DNA from: Candidatus Avelusimicrobium intestinale
GTDB lineage: Bacteria > Elusimicrobiota > Elusimicrobia > Elusimicrobiales > Elusimicrobiaceae
DNA length: 64,000 nucleotides
Assembly (NCBI GenBank): GCA_902765225.1
Contig: CACWYV010000003.1
Location: forward strand, 124,001 to 188,000
Reading direction: 5' to 3'
Within the stretch, counting starts at the first letter, position 1. Each line of letters opens with the position of its first letter. A program made the position numbers and the translations under genes. The notes beneath the pieces are model-generated. The model did no database searches. It saw nothing but the letters and a program-made list of their open reading frames with translations, and was not told where the DNA came from. This document shows positions 1 to 19,262 of this stretch, one piece after another.

Positions 1-1
1 G

Positions 2-250
2 TTGCCGATTTGTGAATTTTACACGCCGTACCGTGTGTTTAACTCTCACGGATGTAATGGTTGTTGGGATGACATAAACTGTAACTTTGACCATTACGAT
101 TATTTCTGGTGTCCGAAGTTCAAAGATACCGACCGCCAATATGAGTGTACCCGTTTGATTACGGGCAAGCAAGTGATTGGCCACATTAGGCAACTGATGA
201 AAGATTATAAATTAACCGCGCCCAAAGACGCAAAAACACAGGAGAAATAA
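2..250 (+). CDS. Hypothetical cysteine-rich protein, 5' end probably cut off
   Basis: The frame is open from the window edge, so the true start may lie upstream; the only in-window start is a TTG at base 2 with no room for a ribosome site. The visible 82 residues are rich in Cys, Tyr and Trp in the first half (for example CNGCWDD) and basic and Lys-rich at the end. The spaced cysteines could bind metal or form disulfides. I do not recognise a family. The stop is two bases before the autotransporter start, so the two are probably co-transcribed. Confidence 0.45.
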   Translation: MPICEFYTPYRVFNSHGCNGCWDDINCNFDHYDYFWCPKFKDTDRQYECTRLITGKQVIGHIRQLMKDYKLTAPKDAKTQEK

Positions 251-251
251 C

Positions 252-2852
252 ATGTCAAAACCCCGTCAAGAAGAAAACATCTATTCCAGTGCATGTATTC
301 AGGCATTGGAGCAAGAATATTGTTCCAGCTGTAGCGCTGCCGTAGTATCCAGCCGAGGGCTGGGGGCACGGGTGGTGTCCCGCATTTATAACGGTGGGCG
401 GCAAGCGTTATATACGGCTACCGTGGGGGCCATGCTGATGAACAATATGGCTGCTCCTGCATGGGGAACCACCACTAATGTGGCGGCCGGGCACACCTCT
501 ACCGGACTTGTAGCCAATAGCGGCGATTTGATTAACGTATATGGTACAACCCGCAGTAGCATTATCAATAATAACGGAAGGGAGATCCTTTTCAACGCTG
601 GAGAAACCCGTAGTACCACCGTCAATTCCGGCGGAGATCAACTTGTGTCCGGCGGAACAGCTAGGGGTACAATCATCAAAAATGGCGGAACGCAACATGT
701 GGCTTCCGTAGGCGGAGCGAGAGCCATATCTGCCGTTATATCCGCTGGTGGTGTACAATTTGTGCGCGGAATCGCGGAGGATACAGAAATCCAGGGAGGG
801 ATACAGATAGTTTCAAACGGGGCAAGTGCGTACGACACCACCATATATCAAGGGGGGCAATCTGTGGAATCCGGTGGGCGAGCAGGCCGTACCACCATAT
901 CTTCCGGTGGGCAAACCATTGGTTCAGGCGGAGCAGCTGTTTGGACTAATATACAAAACGGGAGTCAAACTATTCTTTCGGGCGGACGTGCCACTGTGAC
1001 TTCCATTTATGCAGGCGGGAGACAATATATACAGGGGGGAGGAAGCGCTAATGATACCACCCTTTATGGGGGAACGCAAATTGTCTCTAACGGTGGGATT
1101 GTTACCAGTACTACTTTAAACGGTGGGGACTTAACAGTTTCTGTGGGTGGCAGTGCGGTTAGGGTAAGCCAAATTGTCGGAAATGTGAATGCAGATGTGG
1201 TTGGGGGACTTACAAGCAATACGTATATTTCCGGTACCAACCAATATGGTTCCTCTTTCACATTGGAAAGCGGCGTAGCCAGTAATTTTGTTTTAAATGA
1301 AAATGGCCGTCAAGTTGTTTCCTCCGGTGGAGTAGCCAATCATACGATTCTTAATGGTGGCACACAGCATATATTAGCCGGGGGCTCCGCTATAGGAATT
1401 ACCAATACGGCTGGAACCGTGACATTATCTTCCGGAGGGACGATAAGCAATTACAGCGGAAATGGAGATTTATATGTACGTGGCACCAATGTGTTAAGGG
1501 GGACTGCTAATTTGGGCAATGGTCAATTGGTTGTTGATAACAGCACTCCGGCGGATGTATCTGTACATCATTTGTCGGCGAATAATGCCGTCATTTCTAT
1601 GGGAGTCAACTTACAGGAGCAGACGGCCGATAAGTTGATAGTTACTAGCAGTTACAATGGAGATGCTCACCTGAAATTGAGAAATATGGCCCCTGTAGCT
1701 GGCGCAACTCCCGAAGACGGCATCAAATTAATTGACTTTAACGATAGTGCTACCGTAAACGGTACGTTTGACCTTGTAGGTGGGCAGTGGGATGAAGGTG
1801 GTTTCGTCTATCAATTAGCGCAAAACGAGGGTGATAACGATTACTACCTCAAGTCCACGGGACAGTTAACCGATACGTTTAAAACGATGCTCAATATCCC
1901 CATAATGAACGTGATCGTTGCTCAAACGGGTATGAACTCGTTGCAACGGCGGTTAGGTGATTTGCGTGGTATGAATAACACGCAAGCCAAACAAGGTATT
2001 TGGGTGCGCAGTTATTACAAGGATATGACTGTTAAAGACTTGGCCAAAACAGATATGAGTCTGTTTGGTGCCGAGGCCGGATATGATTGGCTATTTAATG
2101 CCGAGGAACCTACTAAATTGTATGCAGGGGTGTTGGTTGGTTTTGTATCGGCGGGTAGCATCAAGACGGAGAAAAATGATGGTATGTATGAAAAAGGGGA
2201 CGGTCAAGCCCCCACGGTAGGTGTATATGCTACACTTGTCAACGAAAACGGTTGGTTCGTGGACATTGCCGCGCGTAATTTTTGGACGAAGCTGGATATG
2301 AAGAACCATACCAGTGACGGTACGGAACTTGCCTATAAACCCGAACGCAATGTATTAGCGGCGAGTGTAGAAGTAGGTAAGAGTTTTGATACGGAATTAT
2401 CCCGCGGTAGTTTTATTCGTATAGAACCCAAAGTAGAAGTGAGCTATATGAATGCGGCCAGTGATGAAGCTAAAGTGTCCAATGGTAATAAACTCACATA
2501 TGATGCGGCTAATTATGTGGATGCCAAAGCGGGCGTTTTGTTCGCGTATGAGGCCGTGCGCAGCAACGGGTTGTTGATTGAACCGTTGTTGGAATTGGCG
2601 TATCGGTATAACTTTAGCGGGAAAGACCCCATTTCTTATGCCGGAGCGACTGCCGATAGTGATTTAAAAGGTGGTACGGCCGAGGTTAACGCCGGGTTAA
2701 ATATGCAACTGACCGATAATTTGTACTGGTATAGTTTGGGAAGTTATGAAGCCAGCGACAAAGTAAAAGGTTGGGGTGTACACGCCGGTATCCGCTATGC
2801 GTTTGGGGAGCCAGATATCAGGCCCTACAAAAAATCTGGTAAGCGAAAATAG
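252..2852 (+). CDS. AIDA-repeat autotransporter (type V secretion)
   Basis: Predicted self-secreting surface protein. Residues about 75-430 are degenerate repeats of roughly 20 residues with the pattern SGG..x(T/S)xI..GG typical of AIDA-type passengers, which fold as a beta-helix. A linker follows, and from about residue 580 (GIWVRSYYKDM) to the end is an autotransporter beta-barrel. The hydrophobic secretion segment is not at the extreme N terminus but near residues 51-71, after a 50-residue lead containing three cysteines, like an extended signal region. The barrel normally ends in an aromatic residue; here the last strand (GIRYAF) is followed by about 15 extra residues with a basic end. 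It may be an adhesin; the ligand is unknown. A strong terminator follows. Confidence 0.85.
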   Translation: MSKPRQEENIYSSACIQALEQEYCSSCSAAVVSSRGLGARVVSRIYNGGRQALYTATVGAMLMNNMAAPAWGTTTNVAAGHTSTGLVANSGDLINVYGTTRSSIINNNGREILFNAGETRSTTVNSGGDQLVSGGTARGTIIKNGGTQHVASVGGARAISAVISAGGVQFVRGIAEDTEIQGGIQIVSNGASAYDTTIYQGGQSVESGGRAGRTTISSGGQTIGSGGAAVWTNIQNGSQTILSGGRATVTSIYAGGRQYIQGGGSANDTTLYGGTQIVSNGGIVTSTTLNGGDLTVSVGGSAVRVSQIVGNVNADVVGGLTSNTYISGTNQYGSSFTLESGVASNFVLNENGRQVVSSGGVANHTILNGGTQHILAGGSAIGITNTAGTVTLSSGGTISNYSGNGDLYVRGTNVLRGTANLGNGQLVVDNSTPADVSVHHLSANNAVISMGVNLQEQTADKLIVTSSYNGDAHLKLRNMAPVAGATPEDGIKLIDFNDSATVNGTFDLVGGQWDEGGFVYQLAQNEGDNDYYLKSTGQLTDTFKTMLNIPIMNVIVAQTGMNSLQRRLGDLRGMNNTQAKQGIWVRSYYKDMTVKDLAKTDMSLFGAEAGYDWLFNAEEPTKLYAGVLVGFVSAGSIKTEKNDGMYEKGDGQAPTVGVYATLVNENGWFVDIAARNFWTKLDMKNHTSDGTELAYKPERNVLAASVEVGKSFDTELSRGSFIRIEPKVEVSYMNAASDEAKVSNGNKLTYDAANYVDAKAGVLFAYEAVRSNGLLIEPLLELAYRYNFSGKDPISYAGATADSDLKGGTAEVNAGLNMQLTDNLYWYSLGSYEASDKVKGWGVHAGIRYAFGEPDIRPYKKSGKRK

Positions 2853-2865
2853 TATCTGAGCGTAT

Positions 2866-2897
2866 AAAAATCCCCGTCTATGCGACGGGGATTTTTT
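2866..2897 (+). terminator. Rho-independent terminator after the autotransporter
   Basis: Perfect 9-bp stem (2870-2878 with 2884-2892), loop TATGC, then a T run. It lies 13 bases past the autotransporter stop. Confidence 0.9.
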
Positions 2898-2960
2898 AAA
2901 CATGGGGCAGAAATTTTTGATGGGTCGTCGGTTCTTAGAACGCCGGGTGGCAATGCGCAA

Positions 2961-3118
2961 TTCCCTGTTTAACAGGCAATTAACAGGCAAAAACAGGCAT
3001 TTGAAAAGTTTACCCGTTGGATTCTAAAGCATTGTTGGGATTGCATCCCTCTTCAGAGAAGTATCCGCCAAAAACACTCCCAATTCCCTACTCAGAGTAA
3101 CAGGGAAGATGCAGGGAA
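2961..3118. repeat. Clustered short repeats AACAGGCA / CAGGGAA
   Basis: AACAGGCA occurs three times close together (2971-2978, 2982-2989, 2992-2999). CAGGGAA occurs at 3101-3107 and 3112-3118, with an inverted copy (TTCCCTG) at 2961-2967. The 370-base gap 2853-3222 otherwise holds only the terminator and an inverted repeat close to the next gene. The cluster sits where core-like sequence gives way to the A+T-rich island, so it may be recombinase binding sites or an element end. That role is inference. Confidence 0.4.
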
Positions 3119-3159
3119 AATTGTTATGAATAAATAGTCCCAAACAACATTAATGTGAT

Positions 3160-3211
3160 ATTAGTGAATATACGATGAATTATAACTATTTTATATGATA
3201 AAATCACTAAT
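3160..3211 (+). promoter_or_regulatory. Inverted repeat bracketing the presumed promoter of the HerA-like gene
   Basis: ATTAGTGA (3160-3167) is perfectly inverted as TCACTAAT (3204-3211). Between them lies a possible -10 (TATGAT, 3194-3199); I see no good -35. The position just upstream of the start at 3223 suggests an operator. Confidence 0.35.
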
Positions 3212-3222
3212 GAGAGGGGATT

Positions 3223-5283
3223 ATGAAAAAAATAATTTTTTTAGCAAAGAGCAAAATTGGAGTTTTTTTAATTTTTTTAATTGTGTATATACTTGTAAAT
3301 TGGTTTTTCGGTACACAAATAATTCCTAGCGCGGAAAACTCAGGGTTATGGTTTTATTCTGGGTTATTCATGCTATATTTTTCTATTCTGTTTATTGAAC
3401 CGTATTATACATCGCCTAAAAATGTTATTTCTAATGTTATTCCAATTTTATTATTGTTATTGCCAATAAAAAAATCTTTTGGGTATCCTTCAGTATGGTG
3501 GTTCTTCTTAATTTTTTGTGGTATTCTTTTGCTTATTTCTCTTTTGGCTATGTATTGTGAAAACCCAACAAAAAGTCCAAATGTTTGGCAAAACAGACTA
3601 TCTGTTCAATTAGTTAAAGTTGTAAATATTTTTGGTCGAGCAAGAGTTGTATATTCTCTATGTTTTTTGGTATTTTTGTGTCTATTTGGTACTTTGTCGA
3701 TTCAGCAACAGTTGGCAATGTTTGTGCTTTGGTTTGTCGTAATTTCGCTAGATCCATCGAAGTTACATAATCAACTGTTTCCTCAAGAATCACAAAAACA
3801 AGAGCAACAGATAGGGACTATTTTCGGTGTTCAATCCAGAAAAGTATTTCTGGTTAAGTTATTTGAGGATAGAAAAGCGATCAAAAAGTTTGATGTTGTA
3901 CAGTTTAAGTATAAAATGGCAGAGCAACCAGAGCGAACATTTATCGGGATAGTATTTGATACTTATCTGTTGAATCAAGAAAAATGGGCTAAAATTCTTG
4001 CGTTAAAACAAAAAAATATTGAGACCAATACTTTGATTGATAATGTGGTATATTTGTCAACAGAGTCAACGGCAGATTTGAATCTAGAGAATTTTGTTGG
4101 GATAGTAGATTCCGGGTCCGATATAGGAAAGTTGAAATTTGAGTATTCAAAGAAAAATGATGACTTACAAGAAGGTGATTTATTATTTATAGAGATTGGT
4201 AAACGGAAAATATATTATCAGGTATTAAATGGTTTGGTTACAATTGAATCTTTGGAAGCTCGCAATGAAATTGGATATATTGAGGGAGAGGCTATACAAG
4301 TGGGAGAATGGAATCCATCTGCTCTTTCTTTTCAAAAATATGGATGGGTTCCTCCTGTTAATACGCCTGTATTTCGTACTTCTCCACATAAAAATAGTCA
4401 AACATTTGAGTATCCAGAACTACAGCTTGGGAATATTCCTGGAACCAATTTTCCAGCTGTGATTAATATTAAAGACATGATCTCTCATCATATTGCTATA
4501 TTGGGTGTGACGGGATCTGGCAAAACCTTTATTTCTCATAAATTAATTAAAGAAACGATAAAGGAAAATAAAGTGATATGCATTGATTTCACGGGAGAGT
4601 ATTTCTCAAAATTAAAGGACCTTAATCCTTTGGCGATTATTCAAAATCCTGCGGGTCTAAAAAATAAGGAAAAAGAATTTCGTGCCAAAATGAATAAAGA
4701 GGAACAGAATAAATTTAAAGAGAATATATCGAAACTTTTACGAGAATATGTAAATAAATTTATGCTCGATTCGAATCCGTTGGGTATATTAGAATTACCC
4801 GACTTGTCGAATACTAGTTTTTTATTAGAATTTACGCAATTATTTATTGATATGGTTTTTTCGTATGCTAAAGAGCAATATCAAAATAATAAACCATTTA
4901 AACCTATTTTAATTGTTTTTGAAGAGGCTCATACTCTAATTCCAGAAACCACATCATTGGGGGATTTGGGGGACTATGGCGTGAATAAGGCATTAGTAAA
5001 TAAAATCGGACAAATTGCTTTACAAGGACGAAAATATGGAGTTGGATTTATGATTATTGCCCAACGTACGGCAAATGTATCTAAAACAGTATTAACGCAA
5101 TGTAATACGGTTATATGTTTTCAGGCATTTGATGAAACAAGTTTTGCTTTTTTGGGAAATTATTTAGGTAAAGATTTAGCTCATACATTGCCACACTTGA
5201 AACAATACCATGCAGTATTAGCTGGTAAAGCCATGAAGTCAGCAGTCCCGATGATTGTGGACCTAACCCAGAATGATAACTAA
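3223..5283 (+). CDS. Membrane-anchored HerA/FtsK-like ATPase (DUF87-type)
   Basis: The first about 190 residues contain several hydrophobic segments (near 12-30, 42-58, 66-83, 90-108, 140-180), so the protein is probably an inner-membrane protein with a cytosolic motor. A middle region (about 190-400) may be a HerA-barrel-like domain. The ATPase follows: Walker A GVTGSGKT at 428-435, Walker B ILIVFEEAH at 562-570 and an arginine-rich stretch (QGRKYGVGFMIIAQR), all typical of HerA hexameric DNA translocases. HerA proteins usually pair with NurA or another nuclease, or with SIR2-type effectors in phage defence; none is adjacent here. RBS AGAGG lies 6 bases upstream. The gene is markedly A+T-rich, which suggests horizontal transfer. 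Family assignment is firm; a defence role is inference. Confidence 0.75.
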   Translation: MKKIIFLAKSKIGVFLIFLIVYILVNWFFGTQIIPSAENSGLWFYSGLFMLYFSILFIEPYYTSPKNVISNVIPILLLLLPIKKSFGYPSVWWFFLIFCGILLLISLLAMYCENPTKSPNVWQNRLSVQLVKVVNIFGRARVVYSLCFLVFLCLFGTLSIQQQLAMFVLWFVVISLDPSKLHNQLFPQESQKQEQQIGTIFGVQSRKVFLVKLFEDRKAIKKFDVVQFKYKMAEQPERTFIGIVFDTYLLNQEKWAKILALKQKNIETNTLIDNVVYLSTESTADLNLENFVGIVDSGSDIGKLKFEYSKKNDDLQEGDLLFIEIGKRKIYYQVLNGLVTIESLEARNEIGYIEGEAIQVGEWNPSALSFQKYGWVPPVNTPVFRTSPHKNSQTFEYPELQLGNIPGTNFPAVINIKDMISHHIAILGVTGSGKTFISHKLIKETIKENKVICIDFTGEYFSKLKDLNPLAIIQNPAGLKNKEKEFRAKMNKEEQNKFKENISKLLREYVNKFMLDSNPLGILELPDLSNTSFLLEFTQLFIDMVFSYAKEQYQNNKPFKPILIVFEEAHTLIPETTSLGDLGDYGVNKALVNKIGQIALQGRKYGVGFMIIAQRTANVSKTVLTQCNTVICFQAFDETSFAFLGNYLGKDLAHTLPHLKQYHAVLAGKAMKSAVPMIVDLTQNDN

Positions 5284-5313
5284 AATTTTAATTTACCACA
5301 TTGTTCTTTTTAT

Positions 5314-5381
5314 TTATCGGCAAAATATAGTTATTTATTTGTAATATATTGCTTGATTTTTTGCCGATAATTCATTATACT
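5314..5381 (+). promoter_or_regulatory. Fic-1 promoter with overlapping inverted-repeat operator
   Basis: -35 TTGATT (5353-5358), 17-bp spacer, -10 TATACT (5376-5381). A perfect 12-bp inverted repeat, TTATCGGCAAAA (5314-5325) and TTTTGCCGATAA (5359-5370), spans 57 bp. Its right arm lies entirely inside the spacer, an ideal position for repression. The same arrangement precedes the second Fic gene. Confidence 0.8.
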
Positions 5382-5400
5382 ACTAGTATAGGGAGAATTT

Positions 5401-6291
5401 ATGAAATATATATCTGTGGCGGAGGCGGCGAAAAAGTGGAAGATTTCGGAGCGGAGCGTGCGCAACTATTGCGCGCAGGGCCGTATCGCGGATGCTGTAC
5501 TGACGGGCAAGACATGGAACATTCCGGCAGATGCCTCTAAACCTACCCGCAAGCCAAAACAGAGTAAAAAGCCTCGTACTCTGTTGGATATCTTGCAGGA
5601 AGAGCAATCTTCCAAGCAACACGGCGGCATTTACCACAAAATACAGATAGATTTAACCTATAACTCCAACCACATAGAGGGCAGCCAACTCACGCACGAT
5701 CAGACTCGTTATATTTTTGAAACAAACACGATTGGCATGGAAGATAAAAGCGCCAAAGTGGATGATATCGTGGAAACCGCTAACCATTTCAAATGTATTG
5801 ATAGAATCATTGAAAATGCGAATTATAAAGTTAGCGAGCGGTTTATCAAAGAATTGCATTCTCTTCTTAAAAACGGTACCTCGGACAGCCGCAAGGCCTG
5901 GTTCGCGGTAGGGGATTATAAGCGGCAGTCCAATGAAGTTGGGGGACACGCCACCGCTAGTCCGGAACAGGTTGCGGCTAAAATGAAAACCCTGCTGGCC
6001 AAATACAATCGCAAAGCTAGACACACCTTCGAAGAACTGCTAGATTTTCATTATCAGTTTGAAGCCATCCATCCGTTTCAAGATGGAAACGGACGTATTG
6101 GGCGGCTGATACTCTTTAAGGAATGTCTGCGTAATAATATCGTTCCGTTTATCATTACGGACAAGATAAAGATGTTTTATTACAAAGGGCTTAATGAGTG
6201 GCCGAAAAATCACGAACGCTTAACCGATACTTGTTTGGCAGCCCAAGACCAAATGAAAGCTGTATTGGATTATTTCAAGATTTCTTACTGA
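5401..6291 (+). CDS. HTH-Fic protein (copy 1), predicted AMP-transferase with DNA-binding domain
   Basis: Residues about 4-45 (VAEAAKKWKISERSVRNY) form a MerR/excisionase-like helix-turn-helix. The catalytic Fic motif HPFQDGNGRIGR is complete at 224-235, so it should transfer AMP, or another nucleotide phosphate, to a target protein. SNHIEG at 89-94 fits the inhibitory motif (S/T)xxxE(G/N) of class II Fic proteins, which blocks the active site until relieved. RBS GGGAGA is well placed. The WYL regulator starts 15 bases downstream. By hand count the protein differs from the copy at 19263 at about 34 of 296 positions with no indels. The HTH suggests that it represses its own promoter. The target is unknown. 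Confidence 0.9.
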   Translation: MKYISVAEAAKKWKISERSVRNYCAQGRIADAVLTGKTWNIPADASKPTRKPKQSKKPRTLLDILQEEQSSKQHGGIYHKIQIDLTYNSNHIEGSQLTHDQTRYIFETNTIGMEDKSAKVDDIVETANHFKCIDRIIENANYKVSERFIKELHSLLKNGTSDSRKAWFAVGDYKRQSNEVGGHATASPEQVAAKMKTLLAKYNRKARHTFEELLDFHYQFEAIHPFQDGNGRIGRLILFKECLRNNIVPFIITDKIKMFYYKGLNEWPKNHERLTDTCLAAQDQMKAVLDYFKISY

Positions 6292-6306
6292 TTCTAGGAT
6301 AAATTT

Positions 6307-7233
6307 ATGCAATCTAAAAACATTAAAAAATTAAATCGGTTGTTGTATCTCTTAAACCAGTTGGACGGTGGAGAGGTGCGAGTTCTGCGCGAATCCGAAG
6401 AAATGGATGTTACTGAGCGCACGATTCAGCGCGATTTAAAAGATATTGAAATGGGTGGCTTTCCCGTCTACAAAGCCGCACCAGGGGTATATAAGTTTAT
6501 TGAGGGATTTTCGCTTAAGAAAATGGATTTAACCGATAAAGAAGCCTCTTTGCTGCTTATGATGCAAGAATTGATCGCGCCGTTCGGAAAGCGATTTCAG
6601 GAGCCGTTTGAGCGGTTGCGTCAAAAGGTGTTGCGCGTGCCGGACGAATCACCGTTTTATATCAAAATGCCGAAGGGAAGCCAATACAAAGAAACAAAAA
6701 TCACGCGTGTGCTGGAAAAAGGTATTTTAGAGCACACGGAAGTGCGTATGTCGCTGGTGGCTGATACCTCGCGCAAACTAACTTACGAATTAAAGCCGCT
6801 TAAAATTATGAATTATGACGGTTTTTGGTATCTGCTGGGTATCAATGCTTATAAACAGGTGCGAAAATTCCGCCTAGACCGCATTTTGGACGCTATCAAT
6901 ACCGATAAACCGTTCAAGATCACTAAAAATATCCAAAAAATGCTGTCGGAAAGCCATAATATTTGGTTTGGGGAAAAACGGGATAAAATTGTGTCGTTTA
7001 TTGTACCTGCTCAATTTGCACCGTATTTTAAGCAGAAAGATTATTTCCCTATGCAAAAAATCCGCAAAACGCAGAAAAACGGGGATATTTTGGTGGAAAC
7101 AAGAGTGTCTAACTACCGTGAAATTATCCCAACGGTGCTGAGTTGGCTGGAACATATCACGCTAGTCAGCCCGGCTGATTTTAAGCAACTGATTTGCCAA
7201 ATTATACGTCAAGCCGATAAACGGATGAAATAA
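6307..7233 (+). CDS. WYL-domain transcriptional regulator (YafY-like)
   Basis: An N-terminal winged HTH of the DeoR/HTH_11 type (about residues 8-55, VTERTIQRDLKDIEMGGFPV) is followed by a WYL domain around residues 130-235 (DGFWYLLGINAYKQVRKFRLDR) and a C-terminal WCX-like domain. WYL regulators sense ligands, often nucleic acids, and commonly control phage-defence islands such as CRISPR-Cas, BREX and CBASS. It is 15 bases behind Fic-1 and should be co-transcribed. A bidirectional terminator overlaps the stop codon. The second Fic gene lacks this partner. Family is confident; regulation of the island is inference. Confidence 0.88.
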   Translation: MQSKNIKKLNRLLYLLNQLDGGEVRVLRESEEMDVTERTIQRDLKDIEMGGFPVYKAAPGVYKFIEGFSLKKMDLTDKEASLLLMMQELIAPFGKRFQEPFERLRQKVLRVPDESPFYIKMPKGSQYKETKITRVLEKGILEHTEVRMSLVADTSRKLTYELKPLKIMNYDGFWYLLGINAYKQVRKFRLDRILDAINTDKPFKITKNIQKMLSESHNIWFGEKRDKIVSFIVPAQFAPYFKQKDYFPMQKIRKTQKNGDILVETRVSNYREIIPTVLSWLEHITLVSPADFKQLICQIIRQADKRMK

Positions 7234-7259
7234 AAAGCGGGGCAAATACCCCGCTTTTT
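7232..7259. terminator. Bidirectional terminator between WYL and nuclease-like genes
   Basis: Perfect 11-bp stem (7232-7242 with 7249-7259), A run on the left and T run on the right, between converging genes whose stops are only 28 bases apart. Confidence 0.9.
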
Positions 7260-7261
7260 GA

Positions 7262-7771
7262 TTATTTTAGTAGCAATTCCCACTTATCTTTATATTCTTC
7301 CAGCCAGTTAGAAGATATATCTGGTGACTCTTTGTATGACGGTTTAATGCGTCGCATGGTTGTATCTTGATGCGGTTGTCCCTTTTGCCCTGGCGTATTG
7401 AGCCAATCTTGGTGGGTTTTTTTGAGAATTTGCGCTACTTTTTCAGCAGGCATGATGTATGTTTTTGGCTGACACTCATCGGTCCATTTTTCAGGTAAAG
7501 TTACAAAAACATAAAACAAATCTTTGTCGCAGATTTCCTCATGTTTTTTGCTCATCATCCAACCATTATCAGCCGATTTCCCTTCAGTGCGAGTTTTTAC
7601 CTGAATGCGGATAGGGCACTCGTAGGAAGGGTGAATTGCCAGAATGTCTATGTCTTTTGTGTTCTCCGGTGCTAATCCCGCGGGAATTGCCAATTCTTTG
7701 GCAATGCGCGCGAGGACGTAATGCTCTCCCGCAGACCGGATAAATGCTTTATCATTTTCTTGCTTGCTCAT
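7262..7771 (-). CDS. PD-(D/E)XK-like small protein, second gene of a pair
   Basis: 169 residues with the layout of a PD-(D/E)XK nuclease core: an N-terminal helix with E16 (GEHYV), D42 on a strand (DIDILAI) and Q57-V-K59 on the next strand (IRIQVKT). The Q variant of the E-x-K motif is common in this superfamily. The C-terminal third is charged and unlike anything I recognise. It begins 9 bases after the stop of another protein with the same core layout, so the two are one transcription unit. DNA cleavage is inferred from three short motifs only; a non-catalytic member is possible. Confidence 0.55.
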   Translation of the reverse strand: MSKQENDKAFIRSAGEHYVLARIAKELAIPAGLAPENTKDIDILAIHPSYECPIRIQVKTRTEGKSADNGWMMSKKHEEICDKDLFYVFVTLPEKWTDECQPKTYIMPAEKVAQILKKTHQDWLNTPGQKGQPHQDTTMRRIKPSYKESPDISSNWLEEYKDKWELLLK

Positions 7772-7780
7772 AACCTCTCC

Positions 7781-8245
7781 TTACTTGAATTTTTTACTAA
7801 ATTCTTCTTGTTTAATTTCGTATTTTTGATATTTGGGGCGTGGTTTTCCGCCGGGGGAAAGTAAAACAAGGGATGTTTTATCTATATTCTTACCGCTTTT
7901 ATGCCGCGAACATTCTTTCAAATATTCTTTTGCTGACAAACACCACATCGTGTTAAGTTGTTCAACGATAAAAATATAGTAATAATTAGGGCGATCTACA
8001 GGATTTTTGACTTGAAATCTCCCACTACCCATTGTGCAAAATCCCGGCTCATTTTCTTTTAATTTGCGGGCTTTGACTTGTAATTCAATAAAACGCCCTG
8101 ACGAGGTTTTAGCCACAAAATCTGTTCCATTGTCATCAACGGCTGGTATGAAACACTCAAAACCTTCCGCCATAAATCGGCTGATAATTAGTAACTCCAT
8201 TCGTCGTGCATAACAAGCACTTGATTCTATCCAGGGTGGTATCAT
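7781..8245 (-). CDS. PD-(D/E)XK-like small protein, first gene of a pair
   Basis: 154 residues. E17 in an early helix, D42 in NGTDFVA, and Q56-V-K58 in FIELQVKAR give the PD-(D/E)XK spacing, nearly identical to that of its downstream neighbour, so an ancient duplication or a paired heterodimer is plausible. AAGGAGGAAT is a strong ribosome site for the ATG at 8245. A modest promoter (TTGATG, 17 bp, CTAAAT on the minus strand, 8294-8266) lies just upstream, and a structured RNA candidate lies beyond it. Possible roles are a restriction subunit or a defence effector; function is not established. Confidence 0.55.
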   Translation of the reverse strand: MIPPWIESSACYARRMELLIISRFMAEGFECFIPAVDDNGTDFVAKTSSGRFIELQVKARKLKENEPGFCTMGSGRFQVKNPVDRPNYYYIFIVEQLNTMWCLSAKEYLKECSRHKSGKNIDKTSLVLLSPGGKPRPKYQKYEIKQEEFSKKFK

Positions 8246-8265
8246 GTAAATTCCTCCTTGTGTGT

Positions 8266-8294
8266 ATTTAGCCTTACTTTGGCCTAAACATCAA
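8266..8294 (-). promoter_or_regulatory. Possible promoter of the paired nuclease-like genes
   Basis: Minus strand TTGATG (8294-8289), 17-bp spacer, CTAAAT (8271-8266), about 20 bases before the start codon. The quasi-palindrome CGACAAACGTTCGTCG (one mismatched pair, about 8317-8332) lies just upstream and could be an operator. Confidence 0.35.
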
Positions 8295-8346
8295 GTAAAT
8301 TGTAGGACATAGTTCCGACAAACGTTCGTCGCTTTTTACTATTAGA

Positions 8347-8528
8347 ATAAAAAAGGCGGCAACCTTTTCGAATAGCTGAGAACCGATCCGAAACGCTGCC
8401 GCCTGCCCACCCCGTAAAGGGTGTGCAAAAGACGACTTCGTTTTCGTTTCTCAGCTCGCCGGATACCGGCGGGGCTATGCCAGACGCATAACGCCAAAAA
8501 CAAGTCCAAAAGCAAATTGTGTACAACT
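8347..8528 (-). ncRNA. Candidate structured non-coding RNA with possible pseudoknot
   Basis: On the minus strand a TATAAT (8540-8535) precedes about 180 bases dense in complementary segments, ending in a six-T run (8354-8349). Visible stems: CGCCGG/CCGGCG closed by three bases; TATGC/GCATA; CACCC/GGGTG around TTTACG; AGCTGAGAA with TTCTCAGCT; and AGGCGGCA with TGCCGCCT. The last two pairings interleave, so they form a pseudoknot or two alternative folds, the second running into the T tract like a terminator. Any reading frame through it gives an unconvincing protein. It could be a free RNA, an attenuator leader for the nuclease-like pair, or an antitoxin RNA. No known family is recognised. 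Confidence 0.5.
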
Positions 8529-8614
8529 GCCTATATTATAACTTTTTGCACAGGATAAGGGGGAGGTTGATAAGAAGGTTTAGTTTTTGTATAGAGAGAA
8601 TATAGGAGAATTTT

Positions 8615-9475
8615 ATGAAAAATCTTAAAAAGCCGTTAAAAATAGGGATTTTGATTTCCTGTTGCCGTTCCTACAAACATCCCCAAAATGAATTTGAAGA
8701 AATGGGGTATGTGGAGCGAAAGATTGTATATTCTTGGGAAGATATACCAAAAAACATCCAAAAACGCTTATCGAAAGAGGAATGTTTGTTATTTCAATCC
8801 CTTGTTTATAATTCTACTTTGGCAGAAGCAATTGTACAGTTTCGTAAAAAATTTGGCTTGCCGGAGGAAGGGGTTCCATTTAAGAAATATGAAAAGTTAA
8901 TCTGCCGCATCGGCAAAGGCCCGCTATACAGATTTGATACTATTCCGGAAATGCAGCATGGGAACGAGGCAAAGGCCCGGCGGTTTTTACGATGTTTCGC
9001 AAAGGAAAATACAATAGCAGATCCGCTTAAAATTCATTTAGAAACAATTTTTTATGCCGGATTTGTAGATCCTAAGCCATATAAATATGGCCCTCTTTCC
9101 ATTCATATTCCTTCCATCCCGGATGATACAACCGGGAAAATCGAACAATACCGTCCTCCGGTGATGATAGCAATCAATTCTGATGATGTATCGCCAAGTG
9201 AAATCCAAAAATATATTCGTACGTATTGGGGCGATATTAAACGGTATTTTCATAAGCATCACTTTGTGTCAGATGTGCGTATTCCTACTGAATGCCTGCA
9301 TAGTTTGGTACTCAAAACAAAAGGAAAGACATCCAAGCAAATTTTAGAACTGTTAGATGCTCAAAATATCAAACAAGGTAAGGATGTTATTAATAAGGGA
9401 GAAGAAGCTATCCGGCAGGAGATTAAACGGACGAAAAATAAAATACAAAAGCTCATTTTTCCTTGTAAGAAATAA
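8615..9475 (+). CDS. Hypothetical island protein
   Basis: 286 residues, no recognised domain, no signal peptide or membrane segment. It is rich in Lys and Ile; the C-terminal 60 residues are strongly basic (IRQEIKRTKNKIQKL), which could contact nucleic acid. A central segment (SEIQKYIRTYWGDIKRYF) looks helical and amphipathic. RBS GGAGAA lies just upstream of the ATG. It sits between the structured RNA candidate and a phage-type methyltransferase, so it may belong to the packaging module as an early phage gene, but nothing in the sequence proves that. Confidence 0.6.
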   Translation: MKNLKKPLKIGILISCCRSYKHPQNEFEEMGYVERKIVYSWEDIPKNIQKRLSKEECLLFQSLVYNSTLAEAIVQFRKKFGLPEEGVPFKKYEKLICRIGKGPLYRFDTIPEMQHGNEAKARRFLRCFAKENTIADPLKIHLETIFYAGFVDPKPYKYGPLSIHIPSIPDDTTGKIEQYRPPVMIAINSDDVSPSEIQKYIRTYWGDIKRYFHKHHFVSDVRIPTECLHSLVLKTKGKTSKQILELLDAQNIKQGKDVINKGEEAIRQEIKRTKNKIQKLIFPCKK

Positions 9476-9477
9476 GC

Positions 9478-9504
9478 GTGACAAAATTTTTCATTTTGTG
9501 TCAC
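9478..9504 (+). promoter_or_regulatory. Inverted repeat upstream of the methyltransferase
   Basis: GTGACAAAAT and ATTTTGTGTCAC form an inverted repeat with one extra base in the right arm, spanning 27 bp. It could be an operator or a small hairpin ahead of the methyltransferase at 9574. Confidence 0.35.
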
Positions 9505-9573
9505 GGTGGAAATACTTCAGTCTTACTATACTTTACTCTGTGCCTATCACTAATTACAGGCACGGAGTTTTTT

Positions 9574-10845
9574 ATGCAAACCATAAAAATCAACAAACTT
9601 AAACCGCATCCGCACAATGCACGGACGCATAGCAAAAAGCAACTGCGCCAAATCGCCCAAAGTATTGAGGCGTTTGGCTTTACAAACCCTGTTCTTATAG
9701 ACGGGAAAGATAATATCCTCGCCGGGCATGGGCGCGTAGAGGCCGCAAAACTAGTCGGCCTTACCGAAGTGCCTTGCGTGCGGATTACGCACCTCACACC
9801 CGCTCAAAAAAGGGCGTATATTTTGGCCGATAACCGTTTGGCCGAATTATCCGGCTGGGACGAGGAATTGCTCAAAGTGGAACTAGCCGAAATCAATCAG
9901 TTGGACTGTGATTTTGACCTTACCTTAACGGGTTTTGAAACGCCGGAGATAGACAATCTCTTGCAACCAGATACGGCGCCTTCCCCGGAGAAGGCCGATT
10001 TTCTGTCGGTCGATATTCCGCCTCGCGTTCAACCCGGTGATTTGTGGCAATTAGGCCCGCATAAACTTTTTTGTGGGGATGCCACAAAGCCGCAATCATA
10101 CGCTATTTTATTGGAGAGTGAAAAGGCTCATATCATTGTGACGGACGCACCGTATAACGTCAACATTGTGGGCCACGTACGCAGTAGTAAAAAATACCGC
10201 GAGTTTGCTATGGCCTCGGGTGAAATGAGCCAAAGCGAATTTACGCAATTTTTGTACGGCGTATTCACATTATTAACCCAATACACTACGCCGGGGAGTT
10301 TGCATTACGCTTTTATGGATTGGCGGCACGTGGGGGAAATTTTACAAGCTGGGCGGGTATATAGCGAACTAAAAAATATCTGTGTGTGGAATAAATTGAG
10401 CGGCGGTATGGGCAGTTTGTATCGCAGCCAGCACGAACTGGTTTTCGTATTCAAAAACGGGAGTAGCCCGCACACCAACAACATTGAACTTGGGGTACAC
10501 GGCCGTTACCGTACCAATGTGTGGGACTATCCCGGTATCTATCTAAACGGCAAGGCCAACCGCGCGAATATTCACTTGCATCCGACGGTAAAGCCGGTGG
10601 GATTACTTTCGGATATTTTGCTGGATGCGAGCCGTCGCAATGAGATTGTGTTGGACCCGTTTGGGGGGAGTGGAAGTACCTTGCTGGCCGCTGATCGTAC
10701 GGGACGCCGCGCGCGGCTAATGGAAATTGACCCGCACTATTGCGACGTGATTTTGTACCGCTACGAACAGTTGGGCGGCAAAGAAGTGAAACTTTTACGT
10801 AGAGAGGTAAATGATGAAAATACCAAGAAAACAAGTAGAAAATGA
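9574..10845 (+). CDS. ParB-domain site-specific DNA methyltransferase (N4/N6 type)
   Basis: The first about 110 residues are a ParB/sulfiredoxin-like domain (HPHNARTHS, AGHGRVEAAK). The catalytic part has motif IV as DAPYNV (usually DPPY or NPPY) followed much later by motif I, LDPFGGSGSTLLAA, which is the beta-class order. It should methylate adenine N6 or cytosine N4. The ATG at 9574 with GGAG upstream is preferred over a GTG at 9478 that would pass through an inverted repeat. Such ParB-methyltransferase fusions are common just before phage terminase genes, as here, where they probably protect phage DNA. The DUF5681 gene overlaps its end by 32 bases. No cognate restriction enzyme is adjacent. 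Confidence 0.85.
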   Translation: MQTIKINKLKPHPHNARTHSKKQLRQIAQSIEAFGFTNPVLIDGKDNILAGHGRVEAAKLVGLTEVPCVRITHLTPAQKRAYILADNRLAELSGWDEELLKVELAEINQLDCDFDLTLTGFETPEIDNLLQPDTAPSPEKADFLSVDIPPRVQPGDLWQLGPHKLFCGDATKPQSYAILLESEKAHIIVTDAPYNVNIVGHVRSSKKYREFAMASGEMSQSEFTQFLYGVFTLLTQYTTPGSLHYAFMDWRHVGEILQAGRVYSELKNICVWNKLSGGMGSLYRSQHELVFVFKNGSSPHTNNIELGVHGRYRTNVWDYPGIYLNGKANRANIHLHPTVKPVGLLSDILLDASRRNEIVLDPFGGSGSTLLAADRTGRRARLMEIDPHYCDVILYRYEQLGGKEVKLLRREVNDENTKKTSRK

Positions 10846-11218
10846 GGATGCTGGTTATACCATCGGCTATTGTAAGCCGCCTGTTCATACACGGTTCCAA
10901 CCCGGTCAGTCGGGTAACCCGAGAGGGCGTAAAAAGGGACATAAAAACCTTAACACGTTGCTACGTCAAGGACTGAATCAGTCCATAACGGTATCGGTGG
11001 GTGGGAAAAAGCGTTCCATGCCCAAATATGCGGTAATCATTACCACGCTTATTAACAAGGCCGTGCAGGGGGAGGCAAAGGCCGTTCAAATCCTTCTGCC
11101 CTACATCCTCAAAATGGAGCAAGCAGAGGCAAAATTAGCCCAAGGAATACAGGCGTTATCTGCTAACGATAAGGAGATCTTAAAAGAATATGTCAGTAGA
11201 AATAATAAACAATCGTGA
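10814..11218 (+). CDS. DUF5681 protein, phage packaging-associated
   Basis: The N terminus has the DUF5681 signature (HTRFQPGQSGNPRGRKKG), a basic motif seen in small proteins encoded beside phage terminases. The rest is mostly helical. The second of two adjacent ATGs is chosen because AGAGAGG ends six bases before it. It overlaps the methyltransferase upstream and terL downstream (by 29 bases), so the three genes look translationally coupled. It may act as a small terminase or DNA-recognition subunit; that is inference from position. Two smaller proteins with related motifs lie further downstream. Confidence 0.75.
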   Translation: MKIPRKQVENEDAGYTIGYCKPPVHTRFQPGQSGNPRGRKKGHKNLNTLLRQGLNQSITVSVGGKKRSMPKYAVIITTLINKAVQGEAKAVQILLPYILKMEQAEAKLAQGIQALSANDKEILKEYVSRNNKQS

Positions 11219-12674
11219 AAAAGAAATTTTAAAGGCCTTGTTGCGGGTAGACTTTAAATCATTTTGTATCAAGGTTTTTTATGAGGTGGCTGGCGAGGCT
11301 GCCTATTTGGATAATTGGCACGTGGACGTTATTTGCCAAGCGGTGGAAGATATGCGCCTTGGGAAGAATACCCGGCTTATTATCAACGTACCGCCAAGGT
11401 ATATGAAATCTATTATTTGCTCGGTGGCGTTGCCTGCTTTTTTGCTGGGACATAACCCCAAAGAGCGCATTTTGTGCGTCAGTTATTCCGACGAACTTTC
11501 TGCCAAAATGGCGTCTGACCAACGTAAAGTAATGGAGAGTGAGTGGTATCAAGCATTGTTCCCTTTTACGCGCTTATCTCGCCGCGGGATAATGGACTTG
11601 GAGACAACGCCCGGTGGTGGGCGGTTTTCTACATCCGTAGGTGGTACGATTACCGGGCGCGGAGGAAATTGGATTATCATTGACGACCCGATAAAACCCG
11701 CTGATGCAAGTTCCGACACAATTCGCAACAAAGTGAACGATTGGTACGGTAATACGCTCCTTTCCCGGTTGGACGATAAGCGCAACGGAAAAATACTGGC
11801 TATTATGCAGCGTACGCACCTAAACGATTTAACGGGCCACTTGCTGGAAACTGACCCTTCGTTTCAGTTGATAAAAATGCCGGCTCTTGCTTCGGAAGAT
11901 GAAACATGGTCTATTGCCACACCGTTTGGGGTGCCGCGCATTGTTAAACGCCCAATTGGAGCGGCGTTACACCCTGAACGGGAAAGTGTGGACGAATTGA
12001 GACGTATCAAATCCACCGCAGGTAGTTATACGTTTGCCAGCCAATATCAACAAGCGCCGGAATGTTTAGGGGGGAATATTATTCGCCGGGAATGGTTGCA
12101 TACATACAGCGCGCCTGAATTGTATGAGCAAGTGCGCACCAGAAGATTGAATTTAGGGCTAGGCCAAAGTTGGGATACAGCGAGTAAAGCCGGAGAAGAT
12201 AACGATTATTCTGTCTGCATTACCTATGCGCACGATTATTGCAAGAGAGTGTGGGTGCTGGATGTATTTAGGGCTAAACTGGAATTCCCTGCCCTATTGA
12301 TGACGGCGGAACGGTTGATAGAGGAGTGTGCCCAGAAGTACAAATTATTAAACCCTTATTTGCCGGACGTGTTGATTGAAGAAATGAATAGTGGTGTGGG
12401 AATGGGGCAAACGCTTCAAATTAAGTTTGGGGAACAAATCAAATTTGTTAAACCCGTGCAAGATAAAGCTACGCGGCTTAAATCCGTGTCACACTTGCTT
12501 GAAAATGGGACGTGTTTGTTCCCGGATGACAATCCCGCGTGGTGGCCGGATTTTGAGCGGGAATTATTACAGTTTCCAAACGGCCGGCACGACGACCAAT
12601 GTGATGCTCTTTCCCAGTTATTGATGTATGAGCAGAACGAACGCAAAGACATCTCGTGGCTTGAACATGTGTAA
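11190..12674 (+). CDS. terL: Phage terminase large subunit
   Basis: 494 residues, a normal length. The ATPase half has the variant Walker A found in this group (NVPPRYMKS, residues about 67-75) and Walker B WIIIDDPI, with the coupling region after it. The nuclease half contains SWDTASKAGEDNDYS, VLIEEMNSG and a terminal RHDDQCDALSQ, the acidic residues of an RNase H-like nuclease. It would cut and pump phage DNA into procapsids. No portal, capsid or tail gene follows; the next gene runs in the opposite direction, so this is an isolated packaging module. Confidence 0.92.
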   Translation: MSVEIINNREKEILKALLRVDFKSFCIKVFYEVAGEAAYLDNWHVDVICQAVEDMRLGKNTRLIINVPPRYMKSIICSVALPAFLLGHNPKERILCVSYSDELSAKMASDQRKVMESEWYQALFPFTRLSRRGIMDLETTPGGGRFSTSVGGTITGRGGNWIIIDDPIKPADASSDTIRNKVNDWYGNTLLSRLDDKRNGKILAIMQRTHLNDLTGHLLETDPSFQLIKMPALASEDETWSIATPFGVPRIVKRPIGAALHPERESVDELRRIKSTAGSYTFASQYQQAPECLGGNIIRREWLHTYSAPELYEQVRTRRLNLGLGQSWDTASKAGEDNDYSVCITYAHDYCKRVWVLDVFRAKLEFPALLMTAERLIEECAQKYKLLNPYLPDVLIEEMNSGVGMGQTLQIKFGEQIKFVKPVQDKATRLKSVSHLLENGTCLFPDDNPAWWPDFERELLQFPNGRHDDQCDALSQLLMYEQNERKDISWLEHV

Positions 12675-12746
12675 GGAACAATAACGGAAGTGACCAAGGC
12701 CTATTGTTTCTCTTTTGTATCATAGGTCCAAAAATAAGTTAGATAA

Positions 12747-13310
12747 TTATTTGCTAATTTTCCAAAAATGTGGTCCGCTAATATTTTTGGAGCCCGTGAT
12801 CTTTCTGGTAACGGCGGTTAAAGAAGGATATGTTTTTCTATTATAGACAATTTTACCGTTCTTCTTTATAATAACCCGATATTGTTTTCCTTTATAGATC
12901 CGAGTGATTGTCTTTGCGGAATTTAATACGTCTGGGAATAATTCGCTGAGATGTTGTTTTTGTAATTGTTGAATTTCTCTAGCTAATTCTTTCTTGTATC
13001 GCATTTCATTTTTAAATAGCGTAGAGTTTCCAGAGGGTTTTAACAAGGTAACAAGAAGTCTCTCTAAACTATCCAAAAACCGATTGTCATTTACAACATA
13101 TAGAGAAAAGGCATCCCAATGGTTACTGTGTTTGTCTGAAAAATGCTGTTTAATTCGTTGGCGTAACTTGGTAGCTTTGCCAACATAATAAATTTTCTTG
13201 CCGCGATGGAGTATATAAATCCCGCCTTTATCACCAATTTTGTTGGCTAGGACGGAATCATATTCCTGTAATATTTCAATAGGAGCTTGATAGAGTTGAT
13301 AGATAATCAT
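12747..13310 (-). CDS. GIY-YIG nuclease fused to a DUF2924-like domain
   Basis: Residues about 27-90 are a GIY-YIG domain: GIYIL, then YYVGKATKLRQRIKQH with the catalytic arginine region. The C-terminal 55 residues (TITRIYKGKQYRVIIKK ... SLTAVTRKITGS ... GPHFWKI) match the pattern of DUF2924, which also ends the two small proteins encoded at 13415 and 13920. The fusion suggests a nuclease tethered through the same module. TATAAT occurs on its strand shortly before the start, and the intergenic region is shared with the divergent gene at 13415. It may be a homing or resolvase-like nuclease of the element. Confidence 0.75.
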   Translation of the reverse strand: MIIYQLYQAPIEILQEYDSVLANKIGDKGGIYILHRGKKIYYVGKATKLRQRIKQHFSDKHSNHWDAFSLYVVNDNRFLDSLERLLVTLLKPSGNSTLFKNEMRYKKELAREIQQLQKQHLSELFPDVLNSAKTITRIYKGKQYRVIIKKNGKIVYNRKTYPSLTAVTRKITGSKNISGPHFWKISK

Positions 13311-13344
13311 GTTTCCATTATATCAGTTTTTTTATAAAAAATAC

Positions 13345-13413
13345 TTGACTTATCTCCCGATAGTAAGCGTGAATGTAGTACGAAGTAAAAATCGCTTATT
13401 TAAGGAGATAAGT
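13345..13413 (+). promoter_or_regulatory. Divergent control region with repeated element and inverted repeat
   Basis: TTGACT (13345-13350) starts an element, ACTTGACTTATCTCCC then RATAGTAAGCGTGAATGT, that recurs at 15079 with one substitution. In this copy ACTTATCTCC (13348-13357) is perfectly inverted as GGAGATAAGT (13404-13413), which also contains the ribosome site of the gene at 13415. I see no good -10 at the right distance. Confidence 0.45.
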
Positions 13414-13414
13414 T

Positions 13415-13723
13415 ATGAAGAAAAACACTAAAAAATCACTAACAAAAACTAAACCCGCGCAACCTGCTGTTTTACGGGTCGTGAGTCCTATTATTACCAA
13501 AGAAACACCGCTTGAAAACTTGCCTATCCGGCCACGCGATAACCGCTTGCCTGCACCGGGTAGCATCATCACTAAAATCTACCGAGGCAAAACCATAGAA
13601 GTAAAAGTGCTGGGAAACGGCTTTGAATACGAAGGGAAAGTATTCAAAAGCATCTCACGTGTGGCAATGACGATCGTCAAACGCCAAATCAGCGGTTATG
13701 TATTCTTTGGGCTTTCCAAATGA
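13415..13723 (+). CDS. DUF2924-like small protein (first of the operon)
   Basis: 102 residues. A basic, low-complexity N terminus (KKNTKKSLTKTKP) precedes a C-terminal DUF2924-like domain: GSIITKIYRGKTIEVKVL, EYEGKVFKSISRVAMTI, ISGYVFFGL. DUF2924 proteins are typically encoded next to phage-type serine recombinases, as here. It overlaps the following gene by four bases, so expression is coupled. Its ribosome site AAGGAGATAAG is one arm of an inverted repeat with the upstream element. Molecular function is unknown. Confidence 0.75.
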   Translation: MKKNTKKSLTKTKPAQPAVLRVVSPIITKETPLENLPIRPRDNRLPAPGSIITKIYRGKTIEVKVLGNGFEYEGKVFKSISRVAMTIVKRQISGYVFFGLSK

Positions 13724-13923
13724 CACCGCGCCATTTACCACCCACTTCAGGGCGATTTGTAAAGGGCCGCTCGGGCAATCCATTGGGGCGGCCTCCCCAA
13801 AATTTACCCGAACGGGAAATCCTTTTAATAATTGCTAAATTTTTGGAAACTTTGGCCAAGGCCTATTGTAATCAAAGCCGTTCGGTGGAAAAAATCCGTC
13901 AGATTAAAGATATTTTATCATGA
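13720..13923 (+). CDS. Short DUF5681-like protein
   Basis: 67 residues whose N terminus, SGRFVKGRSGNPLGRPP, is the DUF5681-type motif also found in the terminase-associated protein at 10814. The rest is one or two helices. It overlaps both neighbours by four bases (ATGA junctions), making a three-gene coupled operon. It may be a truncated form keeping only the DNA- or protein-binding motif. Confidence 0.65.
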   Translation: MTPRHLPPTSGRFVKGRSGNPLGRPPQNLPEREILLIIAKFLETLAKAYCNQSRSVEKIRQIKDILS

Positions 13924-14351
13924 GAAGAAAGTGCTATTTGCCCAAAAGTTATGAAGAATTAAAAGGCCTATCCCCCAAAGAACTGCGGTTTTATTGGAAT
14001 GCTTTTTATACCTGCCCTTTGAGAGGTGTTAAGGCCAAGTTGCGCCCTTTGTGGTATGCCATCCAATGTGAGCTAGGGCGTTGTAAATTACAAGAAAAAT
14101 ACATCACGCGGCTTGACCGGTATGCGAGCAATCCCGACAAGTATATTGAGCATGCGCATAAAAAGCGTTATGCACTTGCCGCCGGAACGATACTGACTAA
14201 AACCTATAAAGGGCGGACGTATCAAGTGACCGTAAAAGGGGAAAACGCTTACGAGTGGGAAGGTAAAATATATCCTAATTTAACAGCATTAGCCGAGAAA
14301 ATAGTGCGTGCCCACGTTAGCGGCCCCAAATTTTTCGGATTAACTAGATAG
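13920..14351 (+). CDS. DUF2924-like protein
   Basis: 143 residues. The N-terminal about 85 residues are basic and helical (LSPKELRFYWNAFYTCPL), as in full-length DUF2924 proteins. The C-terminal domain is GTILTKTYKGRTYQVTVKG ... YPNLTALAEKIV ... SGPKFFGL. It is the last gene of the coupled operon and the best match to the DUF2924 protein that usually precedes a serine recombinase. Here a gene on the other strand separates them and overlaps this one by eight bases at the 3' end. Confidence 0.75.
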   Translation: MRRKCYLPKSYEELKGLSPKELRFYWNAFYTCPLRGVKAKLRPLWYAIQCELGRCKLQEKYITRLDRYASNPDKYIEHAHKKRYALAAGTILTKTYKGRTYQVTVKGENAYEWEGKIYPNLTALAEKIVRAHVSGPKFFGLTR

Positions 14352-15078
14352 AATTAGTACGAATAAGGGGTATAAGTATTTGTTCTACCTTTTTAATGAT
14401 GTCATCGATTGGAGTTGGGCTTGCATAAAGATCCCAAAGTTGTCTGCTATATGGTTTATTATCTTTATTTATTTGACTGACTCCTTCCAGTAAGGTGGAT
14501 ATTTTGAGCCATATGTCATTGGATAAAAATGATGAGGTTTCTTCAAAACATTTTTCTAAATTTTCTCCAAAATAGATGCGTGCTTTAATTTTCAATGACA
14601 TGAGATGATTAATATTTTCTAATTCATTATTCCAGCGGTGTAAAAACACAAGACCTCTTTTAATGATACGTGGATTTTGATCCGAAAGGTTTGAATTCTT
14701 CATTATTTCTTTCAAAATGTCTTCCGCTTTTTGTTCTTCCTCTCCTGTGCTTAATGGACTGCAAATTCTTTTAATAGATTGATTGACTTTATGAAAAGCT
14801 TCTGTAATTTCTGCAGCAAGTTCAAGTTTTTTCTCTTCTAATCTCTCAATAGCCTTATTATGAATATCTTTAATTTCTTCGTTTTGTTTATTTCCCCATG
14901 ATGTAATGCTATGGGTGCTCAAAATAACCCCTAAGAAAGCAGTTATTGCTGCCAAACAGCCGGAATAACTGTCTAATTTGATGTGATAATTTTTGTACAA
15001 CACGATTTCGAACACAACCAGTAAGATTATTAACGCAATTATATCCAATGATTGACGATTTTCCTTTAAGAATTTCAT
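14344..15078 (-). CDS. Hypothetical membrane protein with coiled-coil
   Basis: Start taken as the ATG at 15078 (MKFLKENRQ), because GGGAGAT sits 9 bases upstream; an ATG at 15096 would add six residues but lacks a site. Two N-terminal hydrophobic segments (IIALIILLVVFEIVLY and a second near residues 42-58) anchor it. Then comes a charged helix rich in Glu and Lys (KAIERLEEKKLELAAEI), probably coiled-coil, and a helical soluble domain. It is A+T-rich and inserted between the DUF2924 operon and the recombinase, so it looks like cargo. No function is recognised; small TM-plus-coiled-coil proteins can be phage-defence effectors, but that is speculation. Confidence 0.6.
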   Translation of the reverse strand: MKFLKENRQSLDIIALIILLVVFEIVLYKNYHIKLDSYSGCLAAITAFLGVILSTHSITSWGNKQNEEIKDIHNKAIERLEEKKLELAAEITEAFHKVNQSIKRICSPLSTGEEEQKAEDILKEIMKNSNLSDQNPRIIKRGLVFLHRWNNELENINHLMSLKIKARIYFGENLEKCFEETSSFLSNDIWLKISTLLEGVSQINKDNKPYSRQLWDLYASPTPIDDIIKKVEQILIPLIRTNSI

Positions 15079-15112
15079 ACTTGACTTATCTCCCAATAGT
15101 AAGCGTGAATGT
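15079..15112. repeat. Second copy of the 33-bp control element
   Basis: ACTTGACTTATCTCCC at 15079-15094 continues with AATAGTAAGCGTGAATGT, matching the element at 13343 except for one base. It lies between divergent genes in both places, here the membrane protein gene and the recombinase. CTTATC and GATA-GTAAG inside it form an imperfect palindrome, suggesting a shared regulator. Confidence 0.55.
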
Positions 15113-15132
15113 GTATAGGAGAATTATACTAA

Positions 15133-16761: not shown

Positions 16762-16773
16762 CATAGTAATATA

Positions 16774-16809: not shown

Positions 16810-16816
16810 AAAAGAT

Positions 16817-18784: not shown

Positions 18785-18814
18785 ATTTGGATCCTGAAAA
18801 ATTTGCAGTTAGAG

Positions 18815-18953: not shown

Positions 18954-18956
18954 AAA

Positions 18957-19242: not shown

Positions 19243-19262
19243 AGTAGTAACAGGAGAGGGTT

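Follow-up and report, generated by a model that had tools for sequence, protein, structure and literature searches.

We have found that the minus strand of the window (the whole 64,000-nucleotide stretch of Candidatus Avelusimicrobium intestinale DNA that was analysed) encodes, at positions 8349-8528, a structured RNA of about 180 bases that has interleaved stems, is preceded by a TATAAT box and ends in a terminator, and we conclude that this RNA probably belongs to a new family of cis-acting, riboswitch-like transcription-attenuation leaders that is present in many copies in Elusimicrobiota. An earlier note, made from the sequence of this stretch, had proposed here a structured RNA with interleaved stems, its own TATAAT and a closing T run, belonging to no known RNA family and lying upstream of, and co-directional with, a pair of genes; all of these features are borne out (Table 1). 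The RNA, its helices, its alternative pairings, its terminator and its position before genes are established by comparison with related sequences, and we infer termination, switching and the action of a signal on the RNA.

Table 1. Features of the RNA locus and its surroundings, in window coordinates.
Feature	Position	Strand	Basis or remark
-10 box TATAAT	8535..8540	-	invariant in 7/7 aligned close copies; start site expected at ~8528
Structured leader RNA	8349..8528	-	covariance model match at 8349-8519
Segment A (1), partner A'	8495..8506	-	helix 1: double-sided changes in 10/12 pairs; 94.2% of cells paired
Hairpin hp1	8474..8492	-	helix 2: double changes in 7/7 pairs; 98.4% paired
Hairpin hp2	8457..8471	-	helix 3: double changes in 6/6 pairs; 87.9% paired
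Segment B, partner B'	8448..8456	-	pseudoknot helix, outside the search models
Segment A' (2), partner A or C	8434..8446	-	covariation, A'-C test, fold energies
Hairpin hp3, between A' and C	8405..8426	-	helix 4: double changes in 6/6 pairs; 94.6% paired
Segment C (3), terminator 5' arm and alternative partner of A'	~8386..8403	-	helices 5 and 6; A'-C test
Segment B', inside terminator loop	8374..8382	-	B-B' test
Segment C' (4), terminator 3' arm	8355..8373	-	helix 5: 100% of cells paired; helix 6: 74.2%
U6 run, intrinsic terminator	8349..8354	-	sequence; T-run columns conserved in alignment
Palindrome CGAC(A/G)AACGTTTGTCG (CGACAA..TTGTCG) after terminator	8316..8331	-	possible operator or part of a second promoter
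TACAAT, 11 bases after palindrome	8299..8304	-	possible internal promoter for downstream gene (putative function)
First downstream gene, PD-(D/E)XK-like, 154 aa	7781..8245	-	best Pfam match PDDEXK_5, E 0.0033, below cut-off
Second downstream gene, 169 aa	7262..7771	-	relatives lie behind an RNA of this kind in G068 and G293 (L084, L190)
P286, divergent neighbour, 286 aa, outside the RNA's cis unit	8615..9475	+	no Pfam match over cut-off

We regard covariation across 71 relatives as the decisive evidence against a chance origin of the stems. In the covariance check that the earlier note had proposed, 41 of the 43 modelled pairs change on both sides among the 71 aligned rows (alignment A11); 92.2% of cells are paired, as compared with 67.5% in shuffles and 40-49% when partners are slid, and 763 cells carry double changes as against 224 in shuffles, although this alignment was fitted to the covariance model, which biases the pairing figures toward the model. 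The helix between B and B' was contained in no model and thus provides what we consider an independent test of the structure. It is a perfect helix of 8-11 bp in 71/71 rows, built from 50 distinct B strands; matched strands score 23.0, mismatched partners 10.8, and none of 10,000 permutations over the 50 distinct B strands equalled the match. The second set of 44 rows (A12) has B-B' at a length of at least 8 bp in 40, the helix being short in both copies of L211, in L212 and in L216, which looks false as a family member. Pairing of A' with C, likewise outside the models, scores 21.5 when matched, 17.5 with mismatched partners and 11.7 with shuffled C (0/10,000 permutations). Two crossings result from these helices: A-A' crosses B-B' (order A, B, A', B') and B-B' crosses C-C' (order B, C, B', C'). 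The minus strand folds with a z-score of -4.1 (1/200 shuffles equally good) and the plus strand with one of -2.6. An 80-aa ORF at 8284-8526 overlaps the RNA; it does not explain the stems because the six close copies that are full have matched lengths (171, 173 and 179 bases) that differ by non-multiples of three, and these length changes, together with the compensatory changes, rule out the decayed coding sequence that the earlier note had raised as an alternative.

The RNA also appears able to adopt two competing folds. A terminator state (A-A' with C-C') and an antiterminator state (A'-C) compete in all 71 RNAs, the states having been computed by penalising A-A' and C-C', or A'-C and B-B'. 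The energy difference between them runs from -7.4 to +9.7 kcal/mol, with a median of +1.5, and the overall lowest-energy fold is the terminator in 43 RNAs and the antiterminator in 28; pseudoknots are left out of these energies, whose near equality is partly built in by the resemblance of C to A. For the window RNA, with A, A', C and C' numbered 1 to 4, the calculation gives -70.0 kcal/mol without 2:3 and B-B' and -71.3 kcal/mol without 1:2 and 3:4, so that the antiterminator is favoured by 1.3. When C' has not yet been made, A' is calculated to pair with C in 71/71 RNAs. We read the mutually exclusive 1:2 plus 3:4 and 2:3 pairings, as calculated, as the logic of an attenuator, between whose states the RNA would switch. 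Where the earlier note had offered a pseudoknot or a switch, both descriptions seem to apply, B-B' being the pseudoknot and the two computed folds the predicted switch.

In the mechanism that we propose, transcription would start just upstream of the RNA, which would thus be made first. Formation of A-A' would leave C free and bring transcription to a stop at the C-C' terminator, and A' holding C would act as an antiterminator, lengthened by B-B', allowing readthrough into the gene. B-B' would be compatible with both states, being nested in the antiterminator and a loop-loop pseudoknot when transcription is terminated. A signal, whether small molecule, protein or polymerase factor, could act on the domain formed by A, hp1, hp2, B and A' to favour A-A' and so turn the gene off.

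The family to which this RNA appears to belong is matched by no entry in Rfam 15. At gathering scores that collection found only two tRNAs in the window; with E up to 10 the RNA region gave only mir-7558 (15 bits against a cut-off of 80), and with E up to 1 five further RNA loci gave one tRNA and a weak Leu_leader match in L123, at 641-699, outside that locus's RNA at 1482-1656. A DNA search of 90 same-family genomes (E up to 0.01) matched 13, namely the window's own, six with close copies (one of which, in G032, is interrupted by a contig end) and six with short matches only (E 1.4e-4 or worse); the short matches, together with a second one in G063, we judged from alignment and ORFs to be due to chance. 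A more distant genome, G089, carries an RNA of different sequence and the same layout. A covariance model built from the six close copies with nested helices only, B-B' being excluded (R1), matched 24 of 149 genomes of the order at E up to 0.1. A second model (R2) was rebuilt from 22 of the 24 aligned R1 matches, leaving aside L085, judged false, and L003, almost identical to the window; at class level (E up to 0.01) R2 matched 65 of 235 genomes with at least 169 matches, up to 11 candidates being scored per genome and two genomes reaching that number; 63 of the 65 genomes belong to the window's own family. At phylum level (E up to 0.001) R2 matched 74 of 340 genomes: 59 from the window's family, 1 from a different family of its order and 14 from one further family (f21). 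Of 30 loci found in a pattern scan of named species genomes, R2 confirmed 21, in Elusimicrobium, Elusimicrobiaceae, Elusimicrobiales, Endomicrobium and one 'uncultured bacterium'; the other nine, all outside Elusimicrobiota (Bacteroidota, Myxococcales, Phycisphaeraceae and Poribacteria), fail R2 and were rejected. A phage RNA was rejected after a search of 50,697 phage records gave no match at the DNA level and two patterns went unmatched in viral contigs.

The RNAs aligned here, 115 rows from 111 loci of our choosing, comprise the 71 rows of A11 and the 44 of A12, which were picked to take in f21 and weaker matches. Two types can be told apart by segment A and the bases flanking B': type I (n=47, 26 with pilins), which conserves GCA before B (36/47) and GC or CT after B' (46/47), and type II (n=24, 3 with pilins), which does not and to which the window RNA belongs. 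We note that tandem pairs occur in L211 (1607-2042), L213 (1133-1670) and L217 (1539-2017), the pair in L211 stopping 21 bases before one gene.

In 99 of the 115 rows a complete ORF (60 aa or longer) on the strand of the RNA starts within 400 bases downstream of it; the 16 rows that have none result partly from cut stretches, and there are Endomicrobium copies that lack a gene within 100 bases. The median distance from RNA to ORF is 41 bases, and 64 of the 99 ORFs start 60 bases or less from the U run, gaps that are too short for a promoter plus ribosome site. Upstream of the RNA, -10-like hexamers are present in 71/115 rows as against 20.5 in shuffles, and AGGAG lies within 80 bases of the RNA model start in 32/115 rows as against 5.8 expected; a conserved leader peptide was not found, with only 12 of 34 AGGAG sites having a start codon 3-11 bases on. 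Forty of the 99 downstream ORFs are pilin-like by motif. Pfam and PADLOC, with which 20 and 10 of the 99 proteins were scanned, respectively, add glycosyltransferase families 8, 9 and 61, LicD, UbiA and methyltransferases, and among defence and DNA functions EcoRI-type and type III DNA methylases, a PglX/type II methylase-like protein, a LeoBC-like dynamin and UzuA-like proteins; lipoproteins, named by sequence alone, also follow the RNA. Pilin-type N-terminal signals (PF07963) number 56 in the 1.41-Mb genome of the window. One pilin-type gene of this genome, at C2:78535, follows an RNA, and none of 40 others checked does (best E 0.02), which rules out a general pilin leader. The variety of genes behind the copies rules out an RNA specific to the nuclease pair, and the many copies before pilin and surface genes a packaging RNA for the nearby terminase-type genes; with downstream genes of so many unrelated kinds, and with P286 next to only some of the type II copies, no dedicated partner protein in the style of retrons, OMEGA systems or type III toxin-antitoxin systems was found.

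Other bacteria control such surface and defence genes by phase variation. It is possible, though we hold the idea only tentatively, that a phylum-specific, near-balanced switch drives genes of the phase-variation type in these bacteria (pilins, LicD and other surface glycosyltransferases, DNA methylases, nucleases, dynamin-like proteins and UzuA-type defence), either as an orphan riboswitch with one signal for surface and defence or as an intrinsically bistable leader that would create on/off variation between cells with the DNA unchanged.

The gaps to the downstream ORFs bear on another reading, in which the RNA is a stand-alone, trans-acting small RNA, complete at its terminator, and the genes that follow use other promoters. 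This seems to us unlikely given how close most of those ORFs lie and given that the variable B is matched to B' in cis, even though the RNA has its own -10 box and a strong terminator and, within the window's close family, keeps 83-100% identity next to differing downstream genes. A palindrome follows the terminator in 14/115 rows (the window and 13 others), and in 6 of these, the window included, TACAAT or TATACT stands 11 bases beyond the palindrome, as the stand-alone reading might lead one to expect. In the window both elements lie in a gap of about 103 bases between RNA and gene, and there the downstream gene may own a promoter and the RNA could also act alone. Less probable still is a constitutive structured terminator or mRNA stabiliser that does not switch, its second fold a by-product of the resemblance of C to A: such an element would have no need of A-A', hp1, hp2 or B-B', yet all are kept by compensatory changes, and A'-C complementarity is specific to each copy in the permutations described above; what fits it is that the base of the terminator is the best-kept part of the RNA (helix 5, 100% paired) and that calculated energies cannot show function. 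A DNA-level element comparable to attC, a recombination or cassette site with hairpins that would act as single-stranded DNA and with an activity that would explain the swapped neighbours, is in keeping with variable accessory genes after a conserved structured site, differing even within the window's close family, but is very improbable given that the upstream -10 box and downstream T run are conserved, that the standard G-U pairs present in most helices suit RNA, and that most copies are single and not arrayed.

The two genes that follow the RNA in the window had been called nuclease-like, a label that the Pfam score of the first supports weakly (Table 1); no relative of its protein was found in a phage and viral search. 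The suggested tie between RNA and gene pair holds in part, in that two other lineages also carry relatives of the second gene behind the RNA, although the RNA precedes many other gene types, and among the close copies themselves the RNA is followed by the nuclease pair, by an added coiled-coil gene or by a UzuA-like GIY-YIG protein. Similarly, the statement that no reverse transcriptase or transposon gene is nearby stands for reverse transcriptases, none being found among the ORFs of positions 1-20000, but a serine-recombinase-like gene (named from sequence) lies at 15133-16761, and phage-type genes also lie a few kb from the RNA. P286, the C-terminus of which resembles a helix-turn-helix, is the RNA's divergent neighbour in the window and in 5 of the 6 other close-copy genomes, and is broken by a stop in G025. 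Its family occurs in 16 of 235 class genomes (L033-L065), and its genes lie near type II RNAs in G089 (66 bases), G048 (2.0 kb) and G083 (2.2 kb), so that part of type II may travel on one kind of mobile element. We note that in L062 P286 directly precedes a ParB/methylase-type gene, as in the window, and that in L065 it follows a terminase-small-subunit-like gene (named from sequence). Window positions 9478-18784 hold ParB-methylase, DUF5681, terminase-like, DUF2924/GIY-YIG, serine-recombinase-like and ATPase-like genes; judging from its gene content, which includes no recognised capsid gene, we take this region to be a mobile element of unassigned kind. Two near-identical Fic-type genes (5401-6291 and 19263-20153) flank the region, the second near a tRNA at 20398-20470.

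As a transcription-attenuation leader, the RNA can be set beside several known systems. Attenuators of the trp type have four segments that pair 1:2, 2:3 and 3:4. The RNA described here shares this logic and an intrinsic terminator before the gene, but differs in the lack of a detectable conserved leader peptide, in two extra hairpins between segments 1 and 2, in a variable B-B' pseudoknot that fits both states and in genes that are not biosynthetic operons. With terminator-platform riboswitches it has in common a complex conserved 5' domain with a pseudoknot, overlapping the terminator, as well as tandem copies (L211) and many unrelated genes; it differs in that few bases are universal outside the helices, the flanks of B and B' being conserved in type I only. 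The c-di-GMP riboswitches (GEMM) are said to precede pilin and surface genes. Such targets resemble those found here, and the genome of the window encodes three GGDEF domains, so c-di-GMP is a possible signal for the RNA; the c-di-GMP-I and c-di-GMP-II families of Rfam, however, gave no covariance match to it, and at about 180 nt it has another architecture. In ANTAR-type and other protein-controlled systems, antiterminator and terminator are mutually exclusive, according to the part of PMC3369931 consulted, and in this respect the RNA described here is alike. A search for ANTAR domains gave no match in this genome, the control genomes being equally silent.

Our literature search, which lay outside subscription journals and preprints, found no regulatory RNA described for Elusimicrobiota. 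The portion of PMC8809381 available to us reports pilin-like genes and expressed competence genes in Endomicrobium, and that portion mentions no such RNA. The present findings add for Elusimicrobiota a large class of structured RNA that is absent from Rfam 15, and its many divergent copies could be taken straight into riboswitch or antitermination assays. In gut and termite symbionts rich in pilin genes and accessory DNA, the RNA is also one candidate for the mechanism that selects which of these are expressed.
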